In this document: positions 41,277 to 57,987 of the stretch, one piece after another
How the letters are laid out: each line of letters opens with the position of its first letter
Position numbering within the stretch: position 1 is the stretch's first letter
Origin: Zygnema cylindricum
Lineage: Eukaryota; Streptophyta; Zygnematophyceae; Zygnematales; Zygnemataceae
Assembly: GCA_037447655.1 (NCBI GenBank)
Contig: JBBHKE010000079.1
Span: 1 to 64,000 of the forward strand
Reading direction: 5' to 3'
DNA: 64,000 bases
The notes under the pieces: model-generated
The model's input: only the letters and a program-made list of their open reading frames with translations
Database searches by the model: none
What the model was told of the DNA's origin: nothing
Program-made: the position numbers and the translations under genes

Positions 41277-42696
41277 ATCTAGGTTCAGTTTTAGTTTAAA
41301 CACCTATTTTTAGCCAATCAGTTTTTTGTCTAGAGGACAATACGCTAGTTTTCAAGTATTTGCTTCCATGATGGAGGCAATCGCATCATTTATGGCCCTA
41401 ATCCATCTATCTTTCTCTGGACTGTTCACTGCCTCTAAGTATGACCGAGGCTTATCTGGGTGAGATAGCTTTTGAGCAGCCTGGTTTTCTGAAATATTTT
41501 TGCTACTCCTTCTCTCTCGCTCAAACTCCAAAGTTGGGATGGAGGGAAAGCTTGGATTTCTCCTTAATGTCTCACCAGCTCTCTTATTCATGGAAGCCGA
41601 TTCCGGTTCATTCTTTTGTGTCTCCTCGAAGTCCATAGGAATATGTGAGGTTTCCGGTGGATCTCGTGAATCTTGAATCTCCCCTAAATCTACATTCACT
41701 GTTTCACTCGTGTCCTTTTCGGGAAAGATGGAAACCTCTTCACCTTCAGACTAAAATCTGATTCTTATCTTCTTGGTATACTTAAAAGGGTTAAATTACT
41801 TCTCTTCATCCATCATAACTAGGTGTTTGACCAAAATGATATCTTTCTTTGCTAAGTCATAGACTCTAAATCCCTTGACATTGTCATCATATCCTACAAA
41901 GTAACGAGGTTTTTCCTTAGCATCTAGTTTCCAATTTTTCCTATCCGTGTCAAACTTGTAAACTTGGCTCGTGAATACTTAAAGGTTAGAGATGTTTGGT
42001 TTCCTTCCAACCCATCTCTCATAAGGTGACATTCCTTATACGGATGAGGTAAGGACTCCATTTTTAATGTAGTAAGCACAGTTCATGGCTTCTACCCAAA
42101 ATCTCTTTCATATTTTCTTGTCAGCCAACTTACTGCATGCACTATCTCCTAGTGTTCGGTTCAACCTCTCAGCTACCCCATTTTTTTCCGCATTATATGG
42201 TACACTTTTGTGGTGCTGAACTCCCTCATCTCTCAAGTATTCCTCTAACTGGTTAGAGGTATATTTACCCCATTATCACTCCTTATTCTCTTTATGGGGG
42301 TTCCATGCAATTTCTCATTCCAGGCTTTACTTTCTTTGAAGTAAGTTGGTGTTTTAGACTTTGTTTTTAGGAAGTAGACTCTAGAGTATCTAGACCAATC
42401 ATCGGTTATTGTTACCATAAACCTCTTTCCTCCAACCGAAGGTACTTTTGCAGGTCCCTAGATATCTGTGTGGACCAGATCTAATACTTTATCACCCCTG
42501 TATGTGGCGACTTTGGGAAAGGGAAGTCTGTGAGCCTTACCTTGAGCACAACCACTATAATCATCCATCATTTCATTATCCCTAAACTAAATGCCCTCTC
42601 CTACACCAAGATTTTTCGTTTCCCTTAGCCTATCAAAATGCACATGCCCCAATCGCTTATGGCAAATCATCATTTTTGGAACACCAACATAGTAAG
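41277..42696 (-). pseudogene. E7 integrase and reverse transcriptase N-terminus
   Basis: 41699-41352 carries the acidic linker and the start of reverse transcriptase (SHPDKPRSYLEAVNSPEKDRWIRAINDAIASIMEAN). The next codons (FKLKLNLDN) run up to the E8 insertion at 41277. Integrase-core blocks lie at 42000-42600 (FWVEAMNCAYY-like, GVAERLNRTLGD, IRSDNG, DDWSRYSRVYF, HTDI near 42470). Stops and frame changes occur throughout. The first Asp and the Glu positions appear present. Confidence 0.7.
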
Positions 42697-42924
42697 TGTT
42701 GAATTAGCACGTGAAGCCGGTCCAACACGGGGTAGATTATGGAATATCCATACTCGAGCCGCCTATAATAAACGGCTACGGACCCGCCGGTCTCTAAATC
42801 GAGATGGTGGCATTGTGGTAGTGCGTTCGCAGCTGCAATGAAAGGTCTTAGGTTTGAACCCTGGTCGACTCAATTTTCTCAAGTGTGGGACATGCTGAAT
42901 CCCAGATTTCTAAGAAAACTAACA
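42697..42924 (+). repeat. T1 5' LTR
   Basis: It runs from TGTTGAATTAGCACGTGAAG to AAGAAAACTAACA and contains CACGTG near its start and the tRNA-like sequence at 42801-42871. Similarity to the 3' LTR is high and continuous, with scattered substitutions. Confidence 0.87.
42801..42871 (+). ncRNA. tRNA-like cloverleaf in T1 5' LTR
   Basis: The 71-nt sequence fits canonical arm lengths: acceptor GAGATGG/TCGACTC (6 of 7 pairs), D stem GCAT/GTGC, anticodon stem TTCGC/ATGAA (4 of 5) with loop AGCTGCA, 5-nt variable loop, and T stem TTAGG/CCTGG with loop TTTGAAC. A box (TGGCATTGTGGTAG) and B box (GGTTTGAACCC) are near consensus and an ATTTT run follows directly. The D-to-T part most resembles tRNA-Ala in length and bases. 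It is probably not a working tRNA, because position 33 is not T. Confidence 0.65.
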
Positions 42925-42984
42925 TGGTATCAAAGCCAGCATGATTGCGGATGGTTTGACCTACTTTTTTGGAGGGGTGGTTTT

Positions 42985-43207
42985 TGATTGGCACGTGAAG
43001 CCGGTCTAATACGGGGTAGAATATGGAATATCCATACTCGAGCAGCCCGTAATAAATGGGTACGGACTTGCTAGTCTCTACATCGAGCTGGTGGCACTAT
43101 GGTAGTGCATTTGCAACTACAGTGAAAGGTCCCAAGTTTGAACCCTGGCCGGCTCAATTTTCCCAAGTATGGACATGCCGAATCCTAGATTTCTAGGAAA
43201 TCTAACA
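42985..43207 (+). repeat. T1 3' LTR
   Basis: It begins TGATTGGCACGTGAAGCC and ends GGAAATCTAACA. It is preceded by a purine-rich stretch and followed by the second target copy ATAAG. Confidence 0.87.
43085..43155 (+). ncRNA. tRNA-like cloverleaf in T1 3' LTR
   Basis: This is the second copy of the 71-nt tRNA-like sequence. Acceptor stem GAGCTGG/CCGGCTC pairs 7 of 7 (one G-T). D stem GCAC/GTGC pairs 4 of 4. Anticodon stem TTTGC/GTGAA pairs 5 of 5 with two G-T pairs, loop AACTACA. T stem CCAAG/CCTGG pairs 4 of 5, loop TTTGAAC. Pairing is better than in the 5' copy at several positions where the two differ. The ATTTT run follows the acceptor. Confidence 0.68.
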
Positions 43208-43212
43208 ATAAG

Positions 43213-44697
43213 AATTCTTCTTTTCATTACTCATGTTAAGCCTAAACATTCCTTGGCTATCCCTATCTGCTGTGAAGTAAACTTTATCCCCATAATTAGC
43301 TGTAAAGACTCCTTTTCTAGTGAAGGTATCAAACTCTTTATCATCTAATACAGAAATAGAGACAAGATTCTTACTCAGCTGAGGAATGTAGAGTACATCT
43401 GAGAAGGTGAGTGTAGAAGTTTACCCTCCAGTAAGACTTTTAGATCTAGTGATCCCACTAGGTCTATAGTAACCACTCTTCTATCCCCATACTCTTTCTC
43501 TATAGTAGGGATATTTCTTAGCTTAGTAAATAGGTGTTTATCATGACACATATGCATGGATGCAACTGAGTTTATGATCCATCGTTCTTGTGGAGCTTCT
43601 TGAATTGCTTCGAGAGCACACTTATGTTTTCGAGGAATCTCCTTCTCCTCCAGACTCTCGTCAACAAGAAGCTTCCCATCCTCTTTTTTAGAGGACACGT
43701 CCTCGGTCACTCCTTTCTTTTTTGTGACCACAAGTGCCTTCTTCTTCCCTTTGGAAGAACCCCCTCCACGGTTGTTTTGAAGCCTTAGCTTTGACAGCTT
43801 GACATAATTTGCTATGAATTGTCTTGGCTTTTTGCAAAAATGACAATGACCCTTTGGGGGCCTCGGTCCTCCAAACTAATCTCTCTCTCCCTTGTACGGT
43901 TTCTTGGGATCCTTCCCCCTCCGGTTTGCTCTTGCAACTAAAGCTTGAATGCTCTTTCCTCCTCTCTTAATCTCCATTGTGTTCTCCTACACATGTATCA
44001 TCCGGACCATGGTGTTCCACTTCCATGAACGGTTAGTCATTTCTTGTAGTCGGTACAATATGTTTTTGTACTTCTCAAGTAGCTTCATGATGATAGTGTT
44101 AACTTTCATCTTTATTGTACCTCTCTACCCGGCACTCTCAATTTCCATATAAAAACAATAGAGATCATTACATTAGTCTAACATCTTTTCCCCTTTGTAA
44201 GTATAATTCCCTAACTTTTGTTCGGCCAACTGGAGCTCGTGAATAGTACTTGCTCCATAGATTTCCACCAAACTCACCCACAACTCTTCGGCCTTGTAAA
44301 TGTGAAGGTGGGGGTTACCAAAGCCTAAGTGAGGTGTCTTAGAATGAAGTTTTTGGCTGCCATGTTGATGTTTTCCCACGTTTAGGTATCATTCTTCGCC
44401 GTCTTCACGACCGCCTCTCAGGGTGCCGTGGTTATAGGAGCAAGAGGTGTCTCCTTCTCTTTCCCCTTTTCGAACACACTGCTCTCCCGATCATTTACCT
44501 CCTCCGTTGAAACAGTCGCTTTTGCAGGAAACCTTACTCCTCCAAATCTTGGTGGAGTTCTCAAAAGTGGACGTTTCACTTGTCCACTTACAATACCCCA
44601 ATATCTTTTTTCGCACAAAGCCCCTATCATCATGGCTTCCGAAAAGATGATTCCCTATCTATTGAAGATGGGCAACTTAGAGGGTGGGCCTATAACT
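43213..44697 (-). pseudogene. E7 gag, protease and start of GAG-pre-integrase
   Basis: 44633-44418 gives the N-terminal gag (MMIGALCEKRYWGIVSGQ, TPPRFGGVRFPAKA). 44379-44173 gives part of the UBN2 domain (PHLHIYKAEELWVSLVEIY). Decayed codons follow to the knuckle near 43800-43860, reading CHFCKKPRQFIANY, where the last two ligands are lost. 43731-43375 is the protease segment with box WIINSVASMHMC, in which the catalytic Asp is Asn and Gly is Val. Both gag and protease would therefore be inactive. Confidence 0.75.
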
Positions 44698-51643: not shown

Positions 51644-52632
51644 TGTTGAAATTAAAGGTATTTTCTAGGTTATTTAAATGATTTAAGTAGGAGCAAGAAA
51701 AAGTGGAGGTTGCATGCTCTTAGCTTCTCTCTCTAGCCCCCATACTTGTCGTAGTCACTGAAGGCTGGAGAGGAAGCTAGAGCCATGGCTGGCTATGCTC
51801 CTTCTAGAGTCAAAAGGCAGATCCTTAGTAAACTTACCAAAAGGATTGACGGACCCAGGATTTGATCTTCGTACCTACCATTCGTCAAAGTAGCCGTTAG
51901 TCTTACCTTGTAGTCTAAGACGAGTGTTCAAGTGTATAGGGTACAATAGCTACTTAAACATGACAAAATAGAGAAGTTCGATTTACTGACAAATAAACAA
52001 CAATCACACAGACACAGTTAAAATAGAATTACACCGGAAATGTACTACTTGTATTTTAACGGTTATAAATTAAAGCTGACATCAATCTAACGACGGAGAA
52101 AAAAGTCGGCATCGCGGAATGGTCGATTTTGGCGGTTTGCGGTAATAACCACAACGGGTGACACGTGGCAGCATGACATTGGATGACGGCATCTCCGGGA
52201 CATACTATGGCGAACCCAGATATGGTAGGCGTCGTCTTTCTGGCCATGTCGTACAATGACCGTACAGAAAGTACTTCCGACCAAGTACCTTTCTGTACTG
52301 TACACTCAATTGATTGGCTGCGTATATCAGTAGGAGAGGGTTTAAAGAGGGGTTTAAGACGTAGAAAATTAGAGGTAGCCGCCTCTCTCACAAAGAACTC
52401 TTGTATAAAAGGGTCATCTTTGACCATTGATAATTAACTGCTCAGGGGAGCAAATTCAAGGATTCTTTTGTGGCAGACTCAGGGGAGTCAGCTCTTCCAA
52501 AGGGTTCAGCTCGGTCTGTCTGTATTCTCTAAGTGTGTCAGCCATATTCAGACAAAGCTTAAAGAACTGTGGTTATCCTAGAGGCTATAGCAAACCAATA
52601 CTCTGAGTACCAATGGAGGTCTCAAAATTGCA
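51644..52632 (+). repeat. E13 5' LTR
   Basis: It runs from TGTTGAAATTAAAGG to CTCAAAATTGCA. Promoter-like motifs in order: ACACGTGGC (52161-52169), a 13-bp hairpin GTACAGAAAGTAC/GTACCTTTCTGTAC (52262-52298), TATAAAAG (52404-52411) and GGTCA...TGACC directly after it. The hairpin arms CTCTCTAGCC/GGCTGGAGAG are at 51729-51772. Confidence 0.9.
52404..52411 (+). promoter_or_regulatory. TATA box of E13 LTR
   Basis: TATAAAAG lies about 220 bp before the LTR end and recurs at 57756-57763 in the 3' LTR. It puts the probable transcription start roughly 30 bp further on, giving U3 of about 790 bp and R plus U5 of about 190 bp. Other subfamilies have TACAAAAG at this place. Confidence 0.55.
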
Positions 52633-56998: not shown

Positions 56999-57987
56999 TG
57001 TTAAAATTTAAGGTATTTTATAGGTTATTTAAATGATTTAAATAGGAGCAGGAAAAAGCACAGGCAGCCTGCTTCCAGCTTCTCTCTCTAGCCCCCATAC
57101 TTGTCGTAGTCACTAAAGGCTGGAGAGGAAGCTAGAGCCATGGCTGCCTATGCTCCATATAGAGTCAGAAGGCAAATCCTTGGTAAACTTACCAAAAGGA
57201 TTGACGACCCAGGATTTGATCCTGGTACCTACCATCCGTCAAAGTAGCCGATAGTCGTACGCTGTAGTCTAAGACCAGTGCTGAAGTATATAGGGTACGA
57301 TAGCTACTTAAAGATGACAAAATAGAAAAGTTCGATTTACTGACAAACGGACCACAATCACATAGACAGAGTTAAAATAGAATTACACCGAAAATGAACT
57401 ACTTATATTTTAACGGCTATAAATTAAAGCCGACATCAATCTAACGACGGAGAAAGAAGCCGGTATCGGGGAATGGTTGATTTGGCGGTTTGCGGTCATA
57501 ACCACAACGGGTGACACGTGGCAGCATGACATTGGATTACGGCATCTCCGGGACATACTATGGCGAACCCGGATATGGCAGGCGTCGTTTTTCTGGCCAT
57601 GTCGTACAATGGCCGTACAGAAAGTTCTTCGGACCAAGTACCTTTCTGTACTGTACAGTCAATTGATTGGCTCCGTACATCAGTAGGAGAGGGTTTAGAG
57701 AGGGGTTTAGGACTTAGAAAATATAGGTAGCCGCCTCTCTCTTAGAGAGCTCTTGTATAAAAGGGTCATTTTTGACCATTGATAATTAACTGCTCAGGGG
57801 AGCAAATTCAAGGATTCTTTTTTTGGCACACTCAGGGGAGTCAGCCCTTCCAAGGGGTGCAGCTTGGTCAGTCTGTATTCTTTCAAGATGTCAGCAATAT
57901 TCTGACAAAGCTTACACTATTGAGGTTATCCTAGAGGCTTCTAGCAAGCTGCCTACTCTGAGTACCAATGGAGGTCTCAGAGTTGCA
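56999..57987 (+). repeat. E13 3' LTR
   Basis: It runs from TGTTAAAATTTAAGG to CTCAGAGTTGCA and is collinear with the 5' LTR. It has TATAAAAG at 57756-57763 and GGTCATTTTTGACC at 57764-57777. The T-arm-like CCAGG-ATTTGAT-CCTGG at 57209-57225 lies between TTGACG and CGTCAA arms. Confidence 0.9.

Follow-up and report, generated by a model that had tools for sequence, protein, structure and literature searches.

TRIMs (terminal-repeat retrotransposons in miniature) whose long terminal repeats (LTRs) contain tRNA-like sequences were named Helenus by Kojima in 2024 and are also known as TRIMp3 (PMC10886601). In the available part of that account, Selaginella moellendorffii is the only plant listed, with a 120-bp LTR and an 85-bp interior, and the presence of several Helenus families in one genome is given for fungi (PMC10886601). 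Transcription by RNA polymerase III (Pol III) is proposed there as an unproven step, the promoter role of the tRNA-like part is left open, and the tRNA gene counts of rust fungi are described as inflated by transposon copies (PMC10886601). Here we describe T1, an element of this kind found in a stretch of 64,000 nucleotides (hereafter, the window), and at least three TRIM families with tRNA-like LTR modules that share the host genome.

A decayed miniature element within a Copia copy

T1 is a 511-bp TRIM at positions 42697-43207 of the window, with two LTRs, a primer-binding site (PBS), a polypurine tract (PPT) and a length below 1 kb. Its boundaries were set by alignment to intact relatives or young copies, and its parts are as follows.

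42692..42696, no strand: left target site duplication (TSD), GTAAG, 4/5 identical to 43208-43212; without the insertion, the site aligns continuously with five Copia copies
42697..42924, + strand: 5' LTR, 228 bp, TGTTG...CTAACA, from the alignment to young copies
42925..42939, + strand: PBS for initiator tRNA-Met (iMet), 14/16 against the 3' end plus CCA of the host iMet
42925..42980, + strand: interior, 56 bp, from the sequence and the alignment to intact relatives
42971..42980, + strand: purine-rich tract 5' of the 3' LTR, with one T (GAGGGGGGG in the young copy), from the sequence
42981..43207, + strand: 3' LTR, 227 bp, initial bases mutated (TT for TG), from the sequence and young copies
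43208..43212, no strand: right TSD, ATAAG, 4/5 identical to the left TSD

The original prediction, made from the letters of the window, described a 511-bp TRIM with LTRs, PBS and purine tract, all of which are present, and a 4-of-5 target duplication, which corresponds to GTAAG/ATAAG. Its 228-bp 5' LTR was likewise correct, whereas alignment to intact relatives gives a 3' LTR of 227 rather than 223 bp and an interior of 56 rather than 60 bp. A BLAST search of the window with the 511 bp returned the direct repeats (84.7% identity over 222 bp, E 6.7e-67) and no second T1 copy in the 64 kb, the next matches being short (E ≥0.09). When T1 and one copy of the TSD were removed, the rejoined flanks aligned continuously over approximately 770 bp with five of the window's Copia copies (67-71%), so the limits of the insertion are right. 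The host site is a decayed Copia element on the minus strand, and the region that holds T1 is presumably pol. The window as a whole (1-64000) is crowded with related Copia copies: of 50 repeat families, the 20 largest have 3 to 9 members each.

A tRNA-like module in each LTR

Each T1 LTR contains a tRNA-like module in sense orientation, with the following features.

42801..42872, + strand: tRNA-like module of the 5' LTR, decayed; 53.9 bits to the family model R1, 19/21 pairs
42808..42818, + strand: A box position of the 5' LTR, TGGCACAGTGG in young copies, decayed in T1; from the young-copy alignment
42851..42861, + strand: B box position of the 5' LTR, GGTTCGAACCC in young copies, GGTTTGAACCC in T1; from the sequence and the young-copy alignment
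42874..42877, + strand: TTTT right after the 5' module, from the sequence; intact in 122/124 full fam1 LTRs examined
43085..43156, + strand: tRNA-like module of the 3' LTR; 71.4 bits to R1, 20/21 pairs
43092..43102, + strand: A box position of the 3' LTR, from the young-copy alignment
43135..43145, + strand: B box position of the 3' LTR, from the young-copy alignment
43158..43161, + strand: TTTT 3' of the 3' module, from the sequence

R1 was built from 12 relatives in three families, and pairs are counted out of the 21 formed by a young copy. The two T1 modules on their own are too decayed to be matched as tRNAs by ARAGORN or Rfam. For the young copy L004, the Rfam tRNA model RF00005 gives 53.6 bits over its full length for both modules (E 1.1e-10; gathering cut-off, 29), none of the 21 stem pairs is missing, and the ARAGORN call is tRNA-Gln(ctg). 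The Rfam scores rule out a chance cloverleaf. The tRNA-model check that had been proposed for T1 succeeded in both LTRs of the young copy and in neither LTR of T1. With R1 (53.9 and 71.4 bits) and the young-copy Rfam score taken together, the predicted presence of a tRNA-like module in each LTR is upheld, and the pairing given for the 3' copy (7/7 acceptor, 4/4 D, 5/5 anticodon and 4/5 T) was correct, with 20 of the 21 young-copy pairs kept. By its sequence, the module is not a working tRNA gene, because T33 is absent from the five reference modules and the isotypes called by ARAGORN are inconsistent among copies (Gln, Glu, Thr, Ala, Lys, Asp, Asn, Pro and others).

With Rfam, no match to 5S rRNA was obtained up to E 10 in L004 (1400-2120) or in the window (42600-43300), and the sole match in the window region, snoR100 at 20.4 bits against a cut-off of 50, was taken as chance. 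The suggestion that the differences between the two T1 modules hint at a maintained fold did not, in the form given, survive comparison with the young copy, from which 15/27 and 14/22 differences are C-to-T or G-to-A; C-to-T in a C-G pair yields a U-G pair at no cost. Elsewhere in the window (57201-57241, minus strand; again at 51828-51906; parts at other places), the long Copia LTRs contain a T-arm-like stretch, ACCAGGATCAAATCCTGGG on the minus strand, which matches the tRNA-module model weakly (24.3 bits); the iMet T arm is similar, and the likeness may be chance.

A large and partly recent family

Searches of the host genome (352.8 Mb in 2689 contigs) returned 902 candidates with T1 and 976 with the module as query; 40 were scored per search, and the size of the family, fam1, is therefore a lower bound. 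The fetched copies, which are the better-preserved part of the candidates, comprise 132 LTR hits in 60 clusters, with two LTRs in 38 clusters, one in 11, and three to six in another 11, the last being arrays of the form LTR-interior-LTR-interior-LTR. Perfect 5-bp TSDs flank 28 of the 60 clusters and 4/5 matches flank 6 more (shuffled pairings: mean 0.6, maximum 3), with 32 of 60 having no perfect TSD. The LTRs are identical in 6 of the 38 two-LTR elements, among which T1 is the most diverged (83.8%). The family is thus large and partly recent. The A box is intact in 109 and the B box in 103 of 124 full LTRs, some of which were collected by the module query. C-to-T decay in 126 LTRs amounts to 0.029 at CG, 0.027 at CHG and 0.010 at CHH sites, and near-equal decay at CG and CHG is a pointer to plant methylation; from this and from the host iMet gene, the host was judged to be a land plant.

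Arrays of these repeats have periods of 286-308 bp and ARAGORN calls tRNA genes in them, as would be expected if the repeats were tandem clusters of tRNA genes and not transposons. However, some whole arrays lie within perfect 5-bp TSDs, a PBS and a PPT occur at the junctions, and copies are dispersed; in addition, the missing T33 and the discordant ARAGORN isotypes do not suit tRNA genes. Reading the repeats as gene clusters is already contradicted by these observations, and we give it practically no credence. One array, L077 (C144:50977-52339), has fam1 LTRs spaced 243-246 bp apart instead of the usual 286 bp, with an inverted copy alongside.

In the 38 two-LTR elements that were compared, the position of the module is the same in both LTRs. 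Across the genome, exact 14-base flanks of the module enclose an insert of 70-100 nt at 174 places and one of 0-30 nt at a single place, a count confined to unmutated flanks and to these two size classes. All of the 100 inserts listed among the 174 are tRNA-like, 99 of the fam1 type and one, in the element C66, a different module. The sole short-insert LTR, L085 (C980:103006-103052), is flanked by GTTAG on both sides, and its cloverleaf is deleted between acceptor-stem bases; it is a deletion remnant, not an empty site. Copies without the module had been named in advance as what would count against it, and with 174 module-sized inserts to one remnant, the module claim stands. The L085 deletion looks as if reverse transcriptase had jumped over a folded stem. 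An exact search with module patterns of viral-contig and genome-contig collections, no plant collection being among them, gave no match.

Two further families

The odd module of C66 led to a second family, fam2 (LTR 246 bp, interior 61 bp, 254 candidates), alongside which the genome holds a third, fam3 (LTR 222 bp, interior 66 bp, 911 candidates). A structural pattern consisting of a B box followed by the LTR end and PBS matched 56 places, all fam1 or fam2 by eye, and none in the reversed control; fam3 was missed because its B box reads GGTTCAA. By script, perfect 5-bp TSDs flank 7/9 fam3 and 7/12 fam2 loci, and in a further fam2 locus, L099, inspection by eye shows GTTAC at either end. The PBS matches iMet at 14-16 of 16 positions in the reference copies of all families and at 16/16 in fam2B when compared with the host iMet gene, which we take to resemble the iMet of other plants. 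As its own primer, the module would match the PBS at 9/16 positions, compared with 14-16 for iMet, and was rejected.

The LTR backbones of the families are diverged. Between fam1A and fam3, U3 is 63% and U5 61% identical (shuffled, 48-49%), and the modules are 96% identical. Between the sister subfamilies fam1A and fam1B, the corresponding values are 84% for U3, 89% for the module and 90% for U5, so that the fam1A module resembles the fam3 module more closely than it does the fam1B module. This closeness fits either module exchange or strong conservation combined with faster change in fam1B. The fam2 backbones are near the shuffled level (U3 49-56%, U5 49-55%; shuffled 46-50%), with modules 65-71% identical. 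No clear parent was found among 19 plant tRNAs; identity to the best-scoring of these is 68% for fam1A and fam1B, 65% for fam3, 74% for fam2A and 70% for fam2B. One fam3 array (C1607:97338-97549) contains short tandem pieces of the fam3 U5 of about 40-63 bp each.

A chance SINE insertion into a single LTR of a single copy, leaving a tRNA likeness without a role, would recall the ancient SINE insertion that Kojima proposes as the origin of the class, according to the available part of that account (PMC10886601). Such an event is already contradicted by the module at the same place in both LTRs of 38 two-LTR fam1 elements, by the 174 inserts against one remnant, and by the modules of fam2 and fam3, whose LTRs are diverged; we regard it as very improbable.

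Covariation of the fold

In an alignment of 12 sequences representing all families, pairing is found in 96.4% of cells, compared with 82.3% in shuffled alignments (reached in 0/500) and at most 40.2% in slid controls. Two-sided changes occur in 10 of 21 pairs, including 5/5 of the anticodon stem, against 8.3 in shuffles, 50/500 of which reach 10. Since the families may descend from different tRNAs, fam1 and fam3 were tested apart. The model gave 82 hits in 33 sources, of which 2 were shorter than 60 nt, 20 were fam2-type (including the mosaic) and 60 were fam1/fam3-like, representing 50 distinct sequences. Nine of these were dropped (L050:3002, an unrelated weak hit; three of L094; two of L093; L088:429, with an internal duplication; L077:2046; and L050:644) and 41 kept. 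The duplication in L088 (429-519, minus strand) lies around the anticodon arm of a fam1B module.

In the 41 sequences, 93.1% of cells are paired against 90.0% in shuffles (0/500 reach), and 27 cells show two-sided change against 9.7 (0/500), relatedness inflating the cell counts; the number of pairs with two-sided change is 5 against 3.9 (120/500). Two anticodon-stem pairs stand out: 27:43 is U-A in 28 sequences, C-G in 11 and unpaired in 2, and 29:41 is C-G in 20, G-C in 11, U-G in 7, G-U in 1 and unpaired in 2. The damaged L095:634-703 has the 29:41 change and lacks that at 27:43, which suggests that the two arose stepwise. In young fam1A alone (88 LTRs), there are no two-sided changes; of 35 one-sided ones, 17 preserve the pair. 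At non-CpG/CHG sites of the same LTRs, divergence is lower in the module than in the rest of the LTR, a weak effect (mismatch ratio 0.38, p 0.030; distinct variants 0.73, p 0.19).

Collectively, these alignments suggest conservation of the tRNA fold despite change in its sequence. Stems without support in an alignment of many copies had been put forward as an argument against the fold; the 96.4% pairing and the two compensated anticodon-stem pairs of fam1/fam3 provide such support, whereas the young subfamily shows no two-sided change and the number of two-sided pairs is near that of shuffles (50/500 and 120/500).

Module exchange and hybrid elements

C66 is flanked by TGTTA on both sides, and its 3' LTR is identical to the young fam1 LTR. 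Its 5' LTR differs from that LTR in the module alone, which is of the fam2 type with one extra G; in this one case, the swapped block begins in ACATCG at the module 5' end and stops near where the anticodon arm ends. Other elements combine whole LTRs of different families: L102 is a fam2 LTR-int3-fam3 LTR element with a 4/5 TSD, the same order recurs inside longer arrays in L103 and L104, L089 reads fam3-int1-fam1B-int2-fam2, and L092 joins a fam1A LTR to a fam1B LTR. In the hybrids, the switch from one family to another lies, by eye, at the PBS, which is where strand transfer between co-packaged molecules would be expected to put it. If transcription starts at the module, the C66 swap would have its left edge at the RNA 5' end. 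It is conceivable, at somewhat less than an even chance, that the module is an exchangeable R-region cassette that is selected for its RNA fold beyond the promoter boxes and moves from one TRIM family to another when templates are switched at the RNA 5' end, giving three diverged LTR backbones with interchangeable cassettes.

Promoter anatomy and proposed life cycle

Promoter features were compared in one reference copy per subfamily. ACATC lies directly 5' of the module, with one further C in fam3. A TATA-like box is present at -35 in fam1A, -34 in fam2B and -32 in fam3; the A/T-rich boxes of fam1B and fam2A are weaker. In fam1A, fam1B and fam2B, TTTT comes immediately after the module, and in fam2A the first TTTT lies 85 nt from the module start; the fam3 LTR examined has no TTTT. 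The T-run that the original prediction placed just after the module is therefore found in T1, fam1A, fam1B and fam2B and is not general. A shared Pol III termination point is unsupported, because the fam3 LTR lacks TTTT and fam2A has none near the module. The young fam1 element contains two TTTT in total, those after its modules.

For fam1, these features favour Pol III, with Pol II as a possible alternative. The TTTT of the fam1 5' LTR would end a Pol III transcript early unless read through, and TATA-like boxes at -32 to -35 would suit Pol II too. A competing explanation, which we consider unlikely but worth weighing, is that the module is kept as an RNA structure, serving packaging, stability or strand transfer as part of R, and has no promoter role. 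It would accommodate the TATA-like elements of fam1A, fam2B and fam3 and the fam3 LTR without TTTT, the two-sided change in all five anticodon-stem pairs of the 12 representatives (two in fam1/fam3), a stem that lies outside the A and B boxes, and the sole module-less LTR, deleted as if reverse transcriptase had skipped a folded hairpin. It does not account for the preservation of the A box in 109 and of the B box in 103 of 124 full fam1 LTRs, a set gathered in part by the module query, nor for a TTTT that abuts the module in fam1A, fam1B and fam2B and occurs nowhere else in the young fam1 element examined.

Under the Pol III route, transcription would start at the module 5' end in the 5' LTR through the internal A and B boxes, perhaps assisted by the TATA-like element about 32-35 bp upstream, so that the R region would begin with the module. 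An autonomous element, probably a Copia, would supply the particles in which the RNA is reverse transcribed from an initiator tRNA-Met primer, as well as the integrase that inserts the product. R may switch template between co-packaged RNAs, which would yield module exchange, hybrid elements and mixed arrays. A PBS-pattern search for an autonomous partner in the window matched T1 only. Taken as a whole, Pol III route included, the explanation that T1 represents a non-autonomous LTR retrotransposon of the Helenus kind, now dead, is in our judgment a probable one.

Comparison with known systems

Three families in one genome, fam1 copies of recent origin, naturally formed hybrids and a module swap together offer a system for testing where the RNA starts, which polymerase makes it and what the fold does. 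The tRNA gene counts of such plants may be inflated, given that ARAGORN and Rfam call transposon copies tRNA genes. Among the open-licence papers that the searches listed, no other describes TRIMs with tRNA-like LTRs in its title or abstract opening. As far as searched, the co-residence of three families in one plant, the module exchange, the hybrids and the covariation are new.

The elements share with Helenus a tRNA match to RF00005 (53.6 bits in both LTRs of the young copy; the window copies are recognized by the family model alone) and conserved A and B boxes (109 and 103 of 124 full fam1 LTRs; decayed in T1). Compared with the Selaginella Helenus, by its published description as far as available (PMC10886601), the LTRs of the reference copies are 222-246 bp and the interiors 57-66 bp. 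Hybrids, a two-module element and anticodon-stem covariation are seen here and go unmentioned for Helenus in the available part of that account (PMC10886601). As far as the open-licence literature was searched, fam1, fam2 and fam3 look like new members of the Helenus kind.

The likeness to Cassandra, as far as the available part of its description goes (PMC7215508), consists in a plant TRIM with a Pol III gene-like LTR module, the PBS TGGTATCAGAGC and tandem arrays, whereas Cassandra has a 5S rRNA sequence and Rfam gives tRNA and no 5S here. The original prediction had presented a tRNA counterpart of Cassandra as a hypothetical case; that case ceased to be hypothetical when Helenus was named in 2024 (PMC10886601). 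Finally, the elements resemble tRNA-derived SINEs in having a tRNA-like part with A and B boxes, which in SINEs forms the head, but differ from them in having LTRs, a PBS, a PPT and 5-bp TSDs.
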